The notes under the pieces: generated by a model
The model's database searches: none
The model's input: the letters and a program-made list of their open reading frames with translations, nothing else
Told to the model about the DNA's origin: nothing
Assembly (NCBI GenBank): GCA_017510335.1
Contig: JAFWNM010000004.1
Span: 1-64,000 of the forward strand
Reading direction: 5' to 3'
DNA from: Paracoccaceae bacterium
GTDB lineage: Bacteria; Pseudomonadota; Alphaproteobacteria; Rhodobacterales; Rhodobacteraceae
Length of the DNA stretch: 64,000 nucleotides
Program-made: the position numbers and the translations under genes
Shown: piece by piece, positions 32,914 through 41,536 of the stretch
How positions within the stretch are numbered: the stretch's first letter is position 1
Layout: each line of letters starts with the position of its first letter

Positions 32914-35900
32914 CTATTCGGCCGCACGCAGGGGCGCTTGCGGTGGCAGCGGGTTTTCAAGCTGAAGGGGCAATTGCACCTCCAGCGGGGCGGGCGGAAC
33001 GTCCCAGATGATTTCCGTTTCGCTTATTTTCTTTAGCTTCCCGTCCAGCGCGCTGTCCCGCCGCGCAACCGATCCGCGCCGCGACAACACCCAGCGCAGC
33101 CCCAAAGCCCCGCGATAGGCCCCTTTCTCAATCCAGACCCGCAGCGCCAGCATGGCGGGTGTCAGCATCAATGTCAGGATCGTGGCGACCCCCAGACCAA
33201 ACACCACCGCTGTGCCCAACTGCTTCCACCAAAGCGAGGTGGGGTTGTCGATGGCATAGCCGCCATTGGCGAAATCTATGCTGATGCCCAGCATCATGGG
33301 CGTCAGACCTGCCATTGTGGTGGTTGTGGTCATCAAGACCGGGCGGATGCGCGCTTCGACTGTGCGGATGATCGCTTCGATCCGGGGCATGATGGCCGCA
33401 TAATTCTGATAGGTGTCGATCAGAACAATGTTGTTATTCACCACAATGCCCGCCAGCGCGACAATTCCTGTCCCCGTCATGATGACCGAAAATGTCTGGT
33501 CCATGACAATCATGCCGATCAGCACACCCGCCGAAGACAACACCACCGCCATCAACACAAGCACCGAATTGTAGAAACTGTTGAACTGCGTCAGCAAGAT
33601 GACAAACATCAGCCCCAGTGCCGCACTGAAGGCGACCATAAGGAACTGCGTGCTTTCTTCCTGATCCTGCTGCTCGCCGGTCCATTCCCAGTCCACGCCG
33701 TCTGGCAACGGGTTGTCCGCGGTCAGCCACTGCGTCAGGGTTTCGATACGTTCTGTTGCCGTGATGGGCACCATTCGCCAGCCGTTCTGGTCAATCTCGG
33801 CAAGGGTGGCTTGCGCGCGGGCATAGGCATCGCTGCCCGGCTCGTTCTCGCGCGGGATGGTCTGGGACCGCGGCACAACGCGCATGGTCTGTCCCGAGGC
33901 ATCCACCAGCCGCACCAAGGCGCCGCGCACATCGGCCTTGACGTCGAAATAGCGTTGCTGGTCCACACGGTCAATCTGGCCGCGCCGCGCCACGGGCCGG
34001 GTGGTGATGAAATTCGACAAGGGCACCATGCCGAAACTTGTCTGGACGCGCAGGGTTTCCAATGTGGACAAAAGCCTGTCACCATCGGGCAGGCGCACGC
34101 GGATGTCGATTTCCTCGTCCGAGCTGTCAACGCGCATTGTATCCAGCAACAGCCCGCGCGTGACCAGTTGCACCATTCCGCCAATGGTGGCCACATCTGC
34201 ACCAAAACGCCCTGCCATGGCCGTGTCGACATCTATTTGCCAGTCAATCCCGGGAATGGGGCGACTGTCTTCCAGATCGAACAGGCCGGGGGTGTCACGA
34301 AACCGCGCCAGCACAGTTTCCACAGCGCCTTCCAGCACGTCGAAATCCTGCCCTTTCAGGCGCAGGTGAACGGGTTTTTGCCCTGCTGGCCCACCGCTTT
34401 GCACCAGAAATTCTGTCTGCAGGCCGGGCACCTGGTCGAATTTCTGTTCCAGCCGTTCCAGAATGGCCGCGCCGCGCATCTGCGGATCACCGATGCGGGT
34501 TTGCCAATGGGTCAGTTCAAACTGGATCTGGCCGATTGCATCGCGCGGGGGGCCGGTGCCTGCGGTGTTGGTGTTCAGCCCGCCATCCCCCGCGAAGGCA
34601 AACACTGCGTCGATTCCGTCTTCGGCAAGGGCGATTTCCTCGATCTGGCGCACCAGCGCGTCCTTTTCCGTGATCGAGAAATTGCCGCGTGCGCGCACAT
34701 AGATGATGCCGCGTTCCGGTTCGGTTTCGACGAAGAATTCCACACCGCGGTTGTTTTCACCGTAATACTGGAATGTCGCCATGACGAAGGCCGCGACCGC
34801 GACGATCAACACAACCGGCATGACAGGGTTGCCCACAAAAAACCGCATCACATGGCCAGCAGGCGAATATTTGCGCCGCGCATCAATGCGGCGCGGCTGT
34901 CGTGGCGGCTTGATTGCCGCAAAGCTGACGGAAATGCCCATCGCGGCCAGCATCATCAACACGGCACCGGGCAAAAGCTGCACCGCCGATTGCGCGGCCT
35001 GTGTGCCCCCTTGCAAATAGCCGGGGTTCAGCAACAGCATCGCCCCCAGCCACATCGCCCCTGCGGCCACCACCGCAAAGGGCAGCCGCGCCAACCATGG
35101 CAGGCGGCGCAACGCCTGTGTGGCATGGTCCAGAACGCGCGCCGCACGGCCGCTAAGCCCGCCCAGAACCGGCAGGAATATAAGCGCGACAATCAAGGAC
35201 GCTGTCAGCACGAAAATCAGCGTGACAGGCAACATGCCCATGAATTCGCCCGCCACGCCAGGCCAGAACAGCATGGGCAGAAACGCGCATAGCGTGGTCG
35301 CGGTGGACGCCGTGATGGGCCAGAACATGCGCTTGGCGGCCTTCACATAGGCCTGCATCGGCCCGTCGCCCTCTTTCAGGCGCTTGTCGGCATATTCGGT
35401 CACGACGACCGCGCCATCCACCAGCACCCCCACAGCCAGAATCAGGCCGAACATCACAATATTGGACACCGCCACGCCCATGATCCCCAGCAGGATAAAG
35501 CACAGCAGGAACGACGCGGGAATGGCAAACCCCACAAGCATGGCGGACCGCGCACCCAGCGCGGCCAGCACCACGATCATGACAAGGGCAATTGCTGTCA
35601 GAACAGACCCTTCCAGCTGCCCGACCATTTCACCCACTTCCACGGATGTGTCCATCGCGGGGGTTATGCGAATGGCGGCCTGCAGTTCCTGCGGCCAGCT
35701 GGCGCGTTCGGCGGCAATGGCCGCGCGCACCTGTTCGGCAGTGTCGATCGCGTTGAAGCCCTTGCGTTTGACCACCTGAATCGCAAGGTTGGTTTCGCCA
35801 TTGAACCGCGCCGTGCCTGCGCGGTCAACGAATGTCATACGTATTTCCGCCAGGTCACCCAGCCGGACAACCGAATCGCCATTCACCTTGACCGGCAGGC

Positions 35901-36621
35901 GGTAAATATCTTCCGGCCCGGAAAAACTGGCCGGAACCGTGACCCCGAATGCCCCGGCAGATGTCGCCACCTCGCCTGCGGCGACAAGCTGGTTGTTCTG
36001 CGTCACCACACTTATCAATTCGCCTGCGGTCACGTTATAGGCTTCCAGCCGCAGCGGATTGATCAGAACCTCGACCATTTCATCGCGGGCGCCGGCAATT
36101 TCTGCCTCCAGAACGGAGTCCAGCCCTTCGATCCTGCTTTGCAAATCGCGTGTGGCGCGCAACAGGGCGCGTTCGGACACATCGCCGGACAAGGCGACAA
36201 TAATCATGGGGAATTCGGAAAAATTGATCTCGGTGATCGAATAATTCTGTGCGCCACTGGGAAAACTGCCTTCGGCGCGGCCCATCGCATCGCGCACATC
36301 CGCCAGCGTGGCGGTTTTGTCCCAGCCGAATTCAAATTCCAGAACAGCAGCGGCAAACCCGTCAGCGGAAAACGCGCTTAGCGTTTTCAGCCCGTCCAGA
36401 TCGGACAGTTCGGTTTCCATGGGGCGCACCAGCATGGTTTCGCCATCCACGGCCGAAATGCCGGGAAAGGGGACCGAAATGATAACCGCCGGAACCTCGA
36501 TATCGGGTTCGCCTTCTTTGGGCAGGTTGAAATAGGTCACAGTGCCCGCAAACAGGGTCATGACCACCAATGCCATGACCATGCGCGCATGGCTGGCCGC
36601 CCATGAAACAAGCCCGATCAT
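32914..36621 (-). CDS. RND efflux transporter permease
   Basis: A 1235-residue inner-membrane RND pump with the standard pattern: TM1, a large periplasmic loop, six helices (TAIALVMIVVLAALGARSAMLVGFAIPASFLLCF..., GVLVDGAVVVTEYADKRL in TM4), a second loop and six more helices. The GVLVDGAVVVTEYADKR and GIVVNNNIVLIDTYQNY segments match the proton-relay regions. It is somewhat longer than AcrB (1049), with extra sequence between the halves and at the C-terminus. It works with the membrane-fusion protein encoded upstream, which its start codon overlaps by 4 nt. An outer-membrane factor gene is not adjacent; the substrate is unknown. Confidence 0.95.
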   Translation of the reverse strand: MIGLVSWAASHARMVMALVVMTLFAGTVTYFNLPKEGEPDIEVPAVIISVPFPGISAVDGETMLVRPMETELSDLDGLKTLSAFSADGFAAAVLEFEFGWDKTATLADVRDAMGRAEGSFPSGAQNYSITEINFSEFPMIIVALSGDVSERALLRATRDLQSRIEGLDSVLEAEIAGARDEMVEVLINPLRLEAYNVTAGELISVVTQNNQLVAAGEVATSAGAFGVTVPASFSGPEDIYRLPVKVNGDSVVRLGDLAEIRMTFVDRAGTARFNGETNLAIQVVKRKGFNAIDTAEQVRAAIAAERASWPQELQAAIRITPAMDTSVEVGEMVGQLEGSVLTAIALVMIVVLAALGARSAMLVGFAIPASFLLCFILLGIMGVAVSNIVMFGLILAVGVLVDGAVVVTEYADKRLKEGDGPMQAYVKAAKRMFWPITASTATTLCAFLPMLFWPGVAGEFMGMLPVTLIFVLTASLIVALIFLPVLGGLSGRAARVLDHATQALRRLPWLARLPFAVVAAGAMWLGAMLLLNPGYLQGGTQAAQSAVQLLPGAVLMMLAAMGISVSFAAIKPPRQPRRIDARRKYSPAGHVMRFFVGNPVMPVVLIVAVAAFVMATFQYYGENNRGVEFFVETEPERGIIYVRARGNFSITEKDALVRQIEEIALAEDGIDAVFAFAGDGGLNTNTAGTGPPRDAIGQIQFELTHWQTRIGDPQMRGAAILERLEQKFDQVPGLQTEFLVQSGGPAGQKPVHLRLKGQDFDVLEGAVETVLARFRDTPGLFDLEDSRPIPGIDWQIDVDTAMAGRFGADVATIGGMVQLVTRGLLLDTMRVDSSDEEIDIRVRLPDGDRLLSTLETLRVQTSFGMVPLSNFITTRPVARRGQIDRVDQQRYFDVKADVRGALVRLVDASGQTMRVVPRSQTIPRENEPGSDAYARAQATLAEIDQNGWRMVPITATERIETLTQWLTADNPLPDGVDWEWTGEQQDQEESTQFLMVAFSAALGLMFVILLTQFNSFYNSVLVLMAVVLSSAGVLIGMIVMDQTFSVIMTGTGIVALAGIVVNNNIVLIDTYQNYAAIMPRIEAIIRTVEARIRPVLMTTTTTMAGLTPMMLGISIDFANGGYAIDNPTSLWWKQLGTAVVFGLGVATILTLMLTPAMLALRVWIEKGAYRGALGLRWVLSRRGSVARRDSALDGKLKKISETEIIWDVPPAPLEVQLPLQLENPLPPQAPLRAAE

Positions 36622-37715
36622 GGTTCACCCCGTTGGGTGGCCTGATCCACGGCGTCCACATAGGCCCCTTCGCGGGTGAATTCCTGCCCAAGGATGATCG
36701 CGGTAATTGTCTCTGGCAAACCTGTCAGCCACACGCCCGAATCCGTGTCGCGCAGCACAGTGGCGGGCGCGAAACTGACCAGCCCCGCATCATCCACCAC
36801 GCGCAGGCCCAATTCCCCCCTGTCATTCAGCGTCAGGGCGGAACCGGGCAGCAGGTGGCCCATTTCCGGGCGGGAGGTCACCATGATATCCGCGCTTTGG
36901 CCATCGCGTATCAGCATCTCCGCGTTGGGCACTGTTACTTCGACACGAAAGGTCCGCGTTTGCGGGTCTGCGGCACGCGACAGAAAGCTGACCACCCCCG
37001 TAACCTGATGACCGGAAGCCAGTTGCGCCTGTGCGGGTGCGCCGGAAACCAGCCTGTCAATCTGGGTTTCGGTGGCAAACCCCACAAGGCGGATGGGGTC
37101 CAGCTGGATCAGGGTGGCGCATAGCGCGCCGGGCTGCAGCAAACTGCCCAGTTCTGCAGTGTCGCTTTCCAATATGCCATCGAAGGGCGCATACATGACA
37201 AGGCGGGCCATTTCTTCTACTGCGCGGTCAACGCCTGCCTGCGCGGATTGCAGCGCCGCGCGCGCATTGGCCAGCCGCGTGTCAGATGCAAAACCGCTTT
37301 CGGACAGGCCAGATGCCGCGCGAAAGTTGATTTCGGCTTCGGTCAGGCGGGCGCGCGCTTCATCAAGGGCGGCATTGCGCACACCGGCGGCAACTTCGCA
37401 CAGGGGCGCACCAGCAGCAACCTGCGCGCCGCGCCGCAACGGGTCTGACGTGACCAGACCGGATGTTTCGGCACGCACATCAACCTGACGCGCGGCTTCG
37501 GTGCGCCCGCGCAGCACAACCGCGTTTTCGATTTCACGCGCCTGCGATGTCTGGACAACCACACGGATGCGCCCTTGCGCGGGGGTATCAGCGTCTTCTT
37601 GAACCGCATCTTCGGTGACGACCCCCGCATAGCCCAGCAGGGCGTCGCGTTCCATCACAGCAAGATAGATGACAGTCATCACCAACAGCGCGGTGAGCAG
37701 TGGAAACAGGCGCAT
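36618..37715 (-). CDS. RND efflux periplasmic adaptor subunit
   Basis: A 365-residue membrane fusion protein (HlyD/AcrA family). It has an N-terminal anchor (FPLLTALLVMTVIYLAV), a lipoyl half-motif VDVRAETSGLVTSDPLRRGAQVAAGAPLCEV, a coiled-coil hairpin (LDEARARLTEAEINF...DTRLANARAALQSAQAGVDRAVEEM), the second half APFDGILESDTAELGSLLQPG, and a beta-barrel domain. GGAGT precedes the ATG. It overlaps the RND permease gene by 4 nt. No regulator is adjacent. Confidence 0.94.
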   Translation of the reverse strand: MRLFPLLTALLVMTVIYLAVMERDALLGYAGVVTEDAVQEDADTPAQGRIRVVVQTSQAREIENAVVLRGRTEAARQVDVRAETSGLVTSDPLRRGAQVAAGAPLCEVAAGVRNAALDEARARLTEAEINFRAASGLSESGFASDTRLANARAALQSAQAGVDRAVEEMARLVMYAPFDGILESDTAELGSLLQPGALCATLIQLDPIRLVGFATETQIDRLVSGAPAQAQLASGHQVTGVVSFLSRAADPQTRTFRVEVTVPNAEMLIRDGQSADIMVTSRPEMGHLLPGSALTLNDRGELGLRVVDDAGLVSFAPATVLRDTDSGVWLTGLPETITAIILGQEFTREGAYVDAVDQATQRGEP

Positions 37716-37810
37716 GCTGATCACTCCGATCTGTGGGAAGGCACTTGCGGGTATACGCTGAACCGCAGGGTTCAGATTAAACGTGGCGACAACAAAGCAC
37801 AAGCGATGTT

Positions 37811-37825: not shown

Positions 37826-37933
37826 CACATCGCGCAGAAGATTTCAACACTTGCGGCGCGATGTAGCGCAGGGCTTGGCAATTCCCCCCGCTTCGCGGTA
37901 TGAATGCACAGTTTTTGTCCAACGAGGTGCTGC

Positions 37934-38584
37934 GTGAGCAATCCTGACAGTTTCATTGATGAAGTCACCGAAGAACTGCGCCGGGACCGCATGACGGGCT
38001 ACCTGCGGCGATATGGCTGGATTGCCGTTCTTGCGGTCGTGCTGATTGTCGGGGGGGCCGCGTGGAACGAATGGCGCAAGGCCAGCGACCGCGCATCGGC
38101 GCAGGCGTTCGGGGATGCGATTCTTGCCGCGCTGGAAAATGACGCGCCCGCCGACCGAATACAAGCGATGGGGCAAATTGACACCAGCGGCCCGCAAAAC
38201 GGCGTCGTAAGCCTGCTTGGCGCGGGCGAGATGTTTGAAAGTGACCGCCCCGCTGCGCTTGCGGCCCTGCGCGCCGCGTCGGAAGATGACGCGCTGACAG
38301 ATGCCTATCGCCAACTGGCCGCGTTGAAATACGTCATTGCAGCGGGCAGCGATGTTCCCGCAGCAGAGCGCGAAACCATTTTGGCGGGGCTGTCGCAACC
38401 CGGTCGCCCCTTCCGGCCGCTTGCGCTGGAACAGACTGCGCTTTTGCAGCTGGAACAGGGCAATACCGAAAGAAGCATTGAAATTCTGACGGACTTACTG
38501 TCACAATCCGACGTGTCCGACACGCTTGCACGCCGGGCGTCGCAACTAATCATTGCCTTGGGTGGTGATCCCGCCGCAAACTGA
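37934..38584 (+). CDS. yfgM: YfgM-like ancillary membrane protein (TPR family)
   Basis: A 216-residue protein with a cytoplasmic N-terminus (SFIDEVTEELRRDRMTGYLRRYG), one membrane helix (WIAVLAVVLIVGGAAWNEW) and a helical TPR-like periplasmic domain. The topology and the order yfgM-bamB-der match E. coli YfgM, which associates with the SecYEG translocon and periplasmic chaperones. I chose GTG preceded by GAGGTG; an ATG 30 nt upstream would add a Cys-rich stretch that looks non-native. Confidence 0.83.
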   Translation: MSNPDSFIDEVTEELRRDRMTGYLRRYGWIAVLAVVLIVGGAAWNEWRKASDRASAQAFGDAILAALENDAPADRIQAMGQIDTSGPQNGVVSLLGAGEMFESDRPAALAALRAASEDDALTDAYRQLAALKYVIAAGSDVPAAERETILAGLSQPGRPFRPLALEQTALLQLEQGNTERSIEILTDLLSQSDVSDTLARRASQLIIALGGDPAAN

Positions 38585-38653
38585 TAAAAGGGCCTGCCGC
38601 CCCCGCGGGCATTCATTCCAAACCGGCCTTTCGGACCAGATTTATAGGAGCGC

Positions 38654-39970
38654 ATGGTGAAACTCTGGACATACGCGAGCATCCTTGCCCTTGGCACCCT
38701 TGTTGCCGCTTGTGATCGCGGGTTCATCCTGGAAGGGGAACGCTTCCCCTTGCGTGCGCCTTTTGCAGAAGGCGCGGGAGAAGCCCCTGTCAACCGGGCG
38801 GACCCCATTAGCCTGCCTGCCACCGCCAGCAATGCGGAATGGACCCACCGTCTGGGCACCCCCAGCACGCGCATTGCCCACCCTGCCCTTGCCGGCAGCC
38901 TGCAGCCTCTATGGTCGGTGCCCATCGGTTAGGGCGAAGGGCGGCGCCACAGAATCACCGCGGAACCCGTGGCCAGCGGGGGCCTGATCTATACGCTGGA
39001 CAGCCATGCACAGGTTACCGCCGTGACCACCCAGGGCGAAATTGCCTGGACGCGGGACTTGACGCCCTCTTTCACCCGCAGCGGCGACGCAGCCTCTGGC
39101 GGGGGGATGGCCGTGGCGAATGGCAGGCTTTATGTCACATCCGCCTTCGGGGTTCTGGCCGCGCTGGACCTGCGCAGCGGCAATGTAGTCTGGACCAAGA
39201 CATTTGACGCGCCCTTGTCAGGTGCCCCCACGGTTTCGGGGGACCGCGTCTATGTCGTTGCATCCGACAGCACGGCCTGGTCCATTGATGCCGCCACCGG
39301 CCAGACCGACTGGCAACTGACCGGCACGCCATCCCCGGCCAGCATGGTGGGCGGCGCCGCCCCTGCCATTGCGGGCAATCTGGTGCTGTTTCCCACCCCT
39401 GCAGGCGAACTGATTGCCGCGCGCCGCGACACAGGCCAGACCATGTGGCGCACCGTCATTGCGGGAACGCGCATCGGGGTGGCCTATGCCAAGGTCACAG
39501 ATGTGACGGGCGACCCGGTTGTTCAGGGCGATCAGGTTTTCGTCGGCAACCAGTCCGGCCGCGTCATGGCGCTGAACACCCGCGACGGTAGCCGCGTCTG
39601 GACCGCAGATGAAGCAGCCTATGGCCCGGTATGGCCAGTTGGCGGGTCCGTGTTCCTGATGTCGGACCGCAACCGCCTGATCCGGCTGGACAGCCGCACC
39701 GGCGGCTTCATCTGGGCGCAACCGCTGCCCCCGCACACAGAAACCCGCGAACGCCGCCGCGCCGAGATTTACGCCCATTACGGCCCGCTTCTGGCAGGCG
39801 GACGCCTTGTCGTTGCGTCCAGTGACGGGCGCATCCGCTTGTTTGACCCCGCATCAGGGGCATTGAACGGCGAAATCGAATTGCGGGGCGGGGCCGCCAT
39901 CAGCCCGATCGTGGTGGGCGGCACGCTGTATGTCGTGTCGCGCGACGGGCAGTTGCACGCCTATCGCTAG
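38654..39970 (+). pseudogene. bamB: BamB outer-membrane assembly lipoprotein gene split by an in-frame TAG
   Basis: A single reading frame of 438 codons, interrupted only by TAG at codon 93 (38930-38932). The first part (92 aa) has a lipoprotein signal with the lipobox LVAAC and ends LQPLWSVPIG. After the stop the same frame continues GEGRRHRITAEPVASGG and then as a PQQ-type beta-propeller with repeated LDxRSGxxxW blades to the normal end. BamB is a BAM-complex lipoprotein that helps outer-membrane protein folding. A single CAG-to-TAG change would explain it. A GTG at 38969 could restart translation, but without export. A sequencing error or read-through is also possible. Confidence 0.85.
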
Positions 39971-40075: not shown

Positions 40076-41536
40076 ATGAGCTTCACTCTCGCTATTGTCG
40101 GCAGGCCGAATGTTGGCAAATCGACCCTGTTCAACCGCCTTGTCGGCAAACGTCTGGCGCTGGTCGATGACCAGCCCGGCGTGACCCGCGACCTGCGCGA
40201 AGGGGCCGCCAAACTGGGCGATTTGCGGTTTACCGTGATCGACACTGCCGGTCTGGAAGAAGTCACCGATGACAGCCTGCAAGGCCGCATGCGCCGCCTG
40301 ACGGAACGTGCGGTGGACATGGCCGATATATGCCTGTTCATGGTGGACGCCCGCACAGGCATTACGCCCACTGACGAAATGTTTGCAGACATCCTGCGCA
40401 AGCGCTCCAGCCATGTCATTCTGGCGGCCAACAAGGCCGAAGGGCGGTCCACTGATGGCGGGGTGCTGGACGCCTACAGCCTTGGTCTGGGGGAACCTGT
40501 GCGCCTGTCTGCCGAACATGGCGAAGGGATGGACGAACTTTACCACATGCTGCGCCCGCTATCGGACGCCTTTGAGGAACGCGAAGAAGAAGACGCCCCC
40601 GAAACCGACCTTGATGTTGCAGATGATGACACCGACACGCCCGAAGATTTCACGCCAAGCGCCAAGCGCCCCTTGCAGGTTGCTGTCATCGGGCGGCCCA
40701 ATGCGGGCAAATCGACGCTGATCAACAAGATCCTGGGCGAAGACCGCCTGCTGACTGGTCCCGAAGCGGGCATTACCCGCGATTCGATTTCCCTGTCGAT
40801 GACATGGCTGGGCACGCCCACGCGCATTTTCGACACCGCAGGCATGCGCAAGAAGGCGCGCGTGGTGGACAAGGTTGAAAAGCTGTCTGTTGCGGACGGG
40901 TTGCGCGCAGTGCGGTTTGCCGAAGTGGTGGTGGTGCTTCTGGACGCCGCGATCCCCTTTGAACAGCAGGATTTGCGCATTGCCGATTTCGCGGAAACCG
41001 AAGGGCGTGCCGTGGTTGTCGCGGTCAATAAATGGGATCTGGAAGATGACAAGCAAGACAAGCTGAAAGCCCTGCGCACAGGGTTTGAAAAGCTTTTGCC
41101 GCAACTGAAGGGCGCACCGCTTGTCACCATTTCCGCCAAGACAGGCAAGGGGCTGGACCGCCTGCACGCCGCCGTGCTGCGCGCGCATGAGGTATGGAAC
41201 CGCCGTGTGCCCACCGCGCGCCTGAACCTTTGGCTGGCCGCCATGGTCGAGGCCCACCCGCCCCCCGCACCGGGCGGGCGGCGCATTAAGCTGCGCTACA
41301 TGACACAAGCCAAAACGCGCCCACCAGGGTTTGTGGTGATGTGTTCCAACCCCGAAGACCTGCCCGCAAGCTACAGCCGCTATCTGGTCAATGGCCTGCG
41401 CGACAGTTTCGACATGCCGGGCACGCCGATCAGAATGTTCATGCGGTCGCAATCCGACAAAAACCCGTATAAGGGCCGCAAGAAAGCGCCCCCGTCCAAA
41501 CTGCGCAAACACTTGCAGGGGCGCAAGGCAGACTGA
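40076..41536 (+). CDS. der: GTPase Der
   Basis: A 486-residue tandem GTPase required for 50S ribosome assembly. The first G domain opens with [19 protein letters not shown] (about residue 7) and has VIDTAGL; the second has [16 protein letters not shown] (about residue 205), [10 protein letters not shown] and NKWD. A KH-like domain ends with a basic tail ([22 protein letters not shown]). The linker between the G domains is acidic. GGAGG lies 5 nt upstream of the ATG. It follows bamB after about 105 nt that include a small GGCCCC/GGGGCC stem-loop. Confidence 0.97.

Follow-up and report, generated by a model that had tools for sequence, protein, structure and literature searches.

The bamB gene in the window, by which is meant the whole 64,000-nucleotide stretch of DNA from a Paracoccaceae bacterium that was analyzed, is interrupted by one in-frame TAG codon at a column where relatives encode glutamine. 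In all probability, a single recent point change introduced this stop into a bamB that is otherwise normal and present in single copy, and the stop belongs to a background of isolated breaks in conserved genes of the same assembly. It is very likely neither a decoding nor a regulatory feature.

The interrupted bamB gene

Translation of the frame from 38654 to 39970 showed that the TAG at 38930..38932 (+ strand) is its sole break, in agreement with the original prediction. The start had been placed at ATG 38654; judged from the sequence, GTG 38657 is the more likely one. The latter codon is GTG in all 36 relatives' rows, and 28 of the 36 have ATG or GTG as the codon preceding it, which is ATG 38654 in this genome. 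The Shine-Dalgarno-like AGGAGC (38646..38651, +) lies 5 nt before GTG 38657, which is thus served by a 5/6 match to AGGAGG, versus 3/6 for ATG 38654. With the start at GTG 38657, the in-frame TAG would be codon 92.

The TAG separates a signal peptide and lipobox from a propeller, which form a single frame in relatives. The translated 5' part (38657..38929, +, 91 codons) begins at the conserved GTG and contains the signal peptide, the lipobox and the N-terminal region; the first two were recognized by eye, the lipobox as LVAAC, which we take to fit the motif. No Pfam or NCBIfam family matched this piece in the profile search. The 3' part (38933..39967, +, 345 codons) encodes the beta-propeller and ends at the gene's own terminator, which in the sequence is also TAG (39968..39970, +). 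It matched PF13360 (BamB; PQQ_2/BamB propeller) at 8e-65, with 219.2 bits against a cut-off of 27.6, and TIGR03300 at 8e-51, with 172.8 bits, which is under the curated cut-off of 285.2. BamB structures were its best PDB matches (4hdj, 6.8e-28). When compared with the three nearest intact relatives, the identity over 25 residues was 0.84-0.92 before the stop and 0.96 after it.

The bamB gene directly precedes der, as expected of the BamB gene position. The der/engA GTPase gene is an open frame at 40076..41536 (+) with matches to MMR_HSR1 (5.8e-50) and the EngA KH-like domain (1.4e-30). The gene upstream of bamB (37904..38584, +) had only a sub-threshold Pfam match, DUF2659, and is presumably yfgM, a name given by its position. 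Just upstream of this cluster, a large RND-type transporter gene and a membrane-fusion-type partner were seen by eye on the opposite strand (32914-37802, -). Around bamB, a promoter and terminator scan gave two promoter-like sites and, on the opposite strand, a single weak terminator-like site. The identification of the gene as bamB (yfgL) is upheld by the propeller family and structures, the lipoprotein-like N-terminus and the place directly before der. The gene differs from other BamB genes in that its frame is interrupted in this assembly.

A comparison with close relatives, which the original prediction had proposed, was carried out by searching 61 genomes, namely the genome under study, 36 of the same genus and 24 of the same class, for the downstream part of bamB. 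This part, or in one genome (G036) only a weak paralogue, was found in 59 of the 61. Thirty-three of the 36 same-genus genomes gave a near full-length match within an open frame of 440-481 codons, whereas the open frame after the stop in the studied genome has only 345 codons. In two further genomes (G001 and G005) bamB is present only in pieces, and the last is G036. No second copy of bamB was found in the studied assembly. All 36 relatives' rows have glutamine at the column of the TAG, and none has a stop; these rows comprise 29 loci from the 61-genome search and seven named records, and since five contigs are duplicated they represent 31 distinct contigs. The named records are two Roseinatronobacter isolates and five MAGs called Rhodobacteraceae or Natronohydrobacter. 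A literature search on titles and the opening of abstracts found, among the matches listed, no natural bamB nonsense allele in the genus.

Apart from the stop, the frame is free of damage, as had been claimed. Before the stop, dN/dS between the studied gene and the three nearest relatives was 0.042-0.076, and among those relatives 0.064-0.094; after the stop, the corresponding values were 0.055-0.068 and, among the intact copies, 0.013-0.056. The gene has 10 private replacements, the stop included, and 47 private synonymous changes, and the G018 copy has 7 and 36. A private proline occurs at 39731-39733 where 30 of 30 aligned relatives have leucine. It is not clear damage, since the gene has two private residues at otherwise invariant columns, the stop and this proline, and other rows have 0 to 9. 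The piece after the stop thus appears constrained like intact copies, and nothing suggests long neutral drift there. Constraint that persists beyond the stop would mean that the change is either recent or absent from the cell, which fits the earlier description of the event as recent or an assembly error.

Decoding of UAG

The possibility was considered that the amber codon is decoded, by a suppressor tRNA or by efficient read-through, so that full-length BamB is made. This resembles stop-codon reassignment or amber suppression in that TAG stands where relatives have glutamine; moreover, two of the six breaks described below are TAG at a glutamine of the nearest relatives, and constraint continues past the bamB stop. 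However, a genome search gave 35 tRNA genes over the cut-off, in a list that is incomplete, and none had a CUA anticodon. A pattern of a CUA anticodon arm and T-arm, built on a skeleton that picks up 34 of the 35 known tRNAs, had six matches in the whole assembly, against 34 for the pattern read backwards as a control. Two of the six lie inside Ser and Arg tRNA genes with sense anticodons and four are without any tRNA, so that no CUA tRNA was found. The tRNA list, which has no Tyr, Phe, Ile(GAT) or Ser(GCT), owes its incompleteness either to gaps in the assembly or to genes missed by the search; relative G021 has 42 tRNAs over the cut-off, and the 30 of these that were typed include Phe, Ile(GAT) and Ala(TGC) genes missing from the list.

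Furthermore, RF1 is present over the cut-off as an open frame with its GGQ and PVT motifs. TAG is an ordinary terminator, ending 58 of 322 long open reading frames in the sampled contigs and bamB itself. The RNA after the bamB stop folded no better than shuffled sequences (z -0.45), and, as opposed to programmed read-through, the stop is not conserved in any of the 36 rows. The mixture of break types in the assembly (two TAG, TGA, TAA and frameshifts) argues against an amber-specific mechanism, as no single suppressor could serve them all. Decoding of the amber codon is therefore highly unlikely, and neither suppression nor read-through, both of which the original prediction had entertained, was borne out. 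It is even more doubtful that the strain broadly tolerates premature stops through leaky translation, with bamB and the other undecayed broken genes still yielding full-length products; this would require that UAG, UGA and UAA all be read through, with frameshifting in addition.

A functional propeller might also arise by a downstream restart, for which GTG 38969 had been suggested. Nine in-frame ATG, GTG or TTG codons lie between 38969 and 39385, and the downstream piece is open. However, the best Shine-Dalgarno match at any of these candidates is 4/6, and it is 3/6 at GTG 38969, against 5/6 at the likely true start. The product would have neither signal peptide nor lipobox and would presumably stay cytoplasmic. 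The restart is the least probable of the readings considered.

Other frame breaks in the assembly

In the survey of the studied assembly, the window's contig (C34, 136.5 kb) was compared with stretches of G018, G021 and G012, as were 240 kb and 260 kb taken from two further contigs; the union of the conserved coding sequence covered in this way was about 432 kb. The relatives, surveyed in the reverse direction, contributed 578 kb (184 kb from G018, 328 kb from G021 and 66 kb from G012). The filter left ten candidate stops in the studied assembly, four of which were judged clean interior stops; in the relatives it left 14, of which one, in the MAG G012, was judged clean, so that G018 and G021, with about 512 kb between them, had none judged clean. 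Split alignments numbered 42 in the studied assembly, where three rows, from two genes, were accepted as clean frameshifts, and 39 in the relatives, where none was accepted. A frameshift counted as clean, by eye, when a long protein was highly identical both before and after it. These counts rest on the reading of listings, and the discarded stops were taken as 5' extensions or shadow frames. By inspection, this applied to C22:46176, 87764, 87830, 123017 and 161877, to C34:108388 and to 13 of the 14 candidates in relatives; C34:108388 and C7:140321 were the sole candidates checked further by sequence.

Apart from bamB, five breaks were judged clean: one TAG, one TGA, one TAA and two frameshifts. 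The TAG lies at 33293 (L109:13293) in an OmpA-domain gene (C22:32405-34201) whose frame is open in the three nearest relatives. Among the 21 relatives' rows that reach this column, the three nearest have glutamine, 17 have glutamate and one aspartate. A coding-potential scan for interrupted reading frames gave 24 places and led to this case; the scan is insensitive, as the bamB and LivH cases are both missing from its list. The TGA is at 95566 in a LivH-type branched-chain amino acid permease gene (C34:94754-95692, -), which is on the window's contig outside the window and is 96% identical to that of G018; the column holds glycine in 19 of 22 rows, aspartate in two and asparagine in one. The TAA (C7:140321, L107:319-321, -) stands just before the conserved C-terminal tail of an AhpC/TSA-redoxin gene. 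The frame continues into this tail in all 11 of the other genomes that were inspected, in one case as extrapolated from a match that was shorter, and not counting a twelfth, weak match; the search for the gene covered 25 genomes, 12 of which had no match. One frameshift occurs at a homopolymer run in a gene that we take to be gcvP-like (C7, near 133465), 95-96% identical to relatives on both sides. The other is in a presumably clpA-like gene (C22, near 107185), where the identity on both sides is 96-98%.

The bamB stop is thus not alone: the assembly has a few such breaks at dispersed positions, which amounts to about 14 for each Mb of conserved coding sequence, and they occur in other assemblies too. 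G012 has an in-frame TAA (L210:9086, C5, +) in a gene 97% identical to its counterpart here. Outside the survey, two fragmented drafts also carry stops: in G001 five codons before the same column of the OmpA-domain gene, and in G013 a TAA in the LivH gene. If equal break frequency is assumed, the probability that all six breaks fall in the studied assembly is (432/944)^6, or about 0.009. Without bamB, which prompted the search, it is about 0.02 for five of five, and with the single G012 break in 66 kb counted it is about 0.03 for at least six of seven.

The spectrum of the stops was also evaluated. A random single change in the sampled genes creates a stop in about 2.7% of cases, and glutamine codons account for 0.18 of such stops overall and for 0.60 among transitions. 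Three of the four clean stops sit where the nearest relatives have glutamine. The probability of at least three of four is about 0.02 for all changes versus 0.52 for transitions. The better fit to transitions keeps a real mutation in play and favors mutation or damage to the DNA over random miscalls.

Origin and meaning of the stop

Two origins of the point change have to be weighed, and the choice between them, like the phenotype of a null, is one that we infer. The verdict is an ordinary one: a consensus error of assembly or base calling, the living strain having an intact bamB, is the most likely origin and has about an even chance, and a genuine young null mutation is nearly as likely. An error would account for the six breaks judged clean in this 43-contig draft (about 432 kb surveyed) when G018 and G021 together had none over about 512 kb, for the frameshift at a homopolymer run and for a bamB without relaxed constraint. 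The broken genes include very conserved ones, such as the gcvP-like and clpA-like genes, and other fragmented drafts of the genus are broken as well, as in G012, G001 and G013. However, the glutamine sites of three of the four stops are what natural transition bias gives, and the assembly is rated 99.99% complete with 0.12% contamination, although these metrics are blind to base accuracy.

If the stop is instead a young null, BamB would be lost, the BAM complex would run on BamA and its other subunits, and the outer membrane would be weaker. The stop spectrum suits this origin, and BamA is encoded here by an uninterrupted open frame of 794 codons. E. coli strains deleted for BamB are described as having permeability defects, with only BamA and BamD essential (PMC3506653), and some Neisseria are described as being without BamB (PMC3359395). 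Against a null stand the full bamB frame in nearly all same-genus genomes, the exceptions being two genomes with pieces and one with a weak paralogue, and the absence of other decay within the gene. In its single stop without further decay, and in the company of several unrelated genes hit by all stop types and by frameshifts, the case resembles isolated nonsense alleles and consensus errors in draft bacterial genomes, and no distinctive difference from these was seen.

The other isolated breaks in the same assembly make the bamB stop less remarkable, and by itself it matters little. The lesson is that, before suppression or recoding is proposed for a lone in-frame stop in a conserved gene of a draft genome, the stop should be weighed against how many other breaks the assembly has. 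BamB is described as belonging to the core BAM complex in Caulobacter (PMC2797634). As written, the gene studied here would give a 91-codon lipoprotein stub without a propeller, and hence no BamB. If the TAG is real, the organism would naturally be bamB-null, within a genus where the full bamB frame is present in 33 of the 36 other genomes searched.
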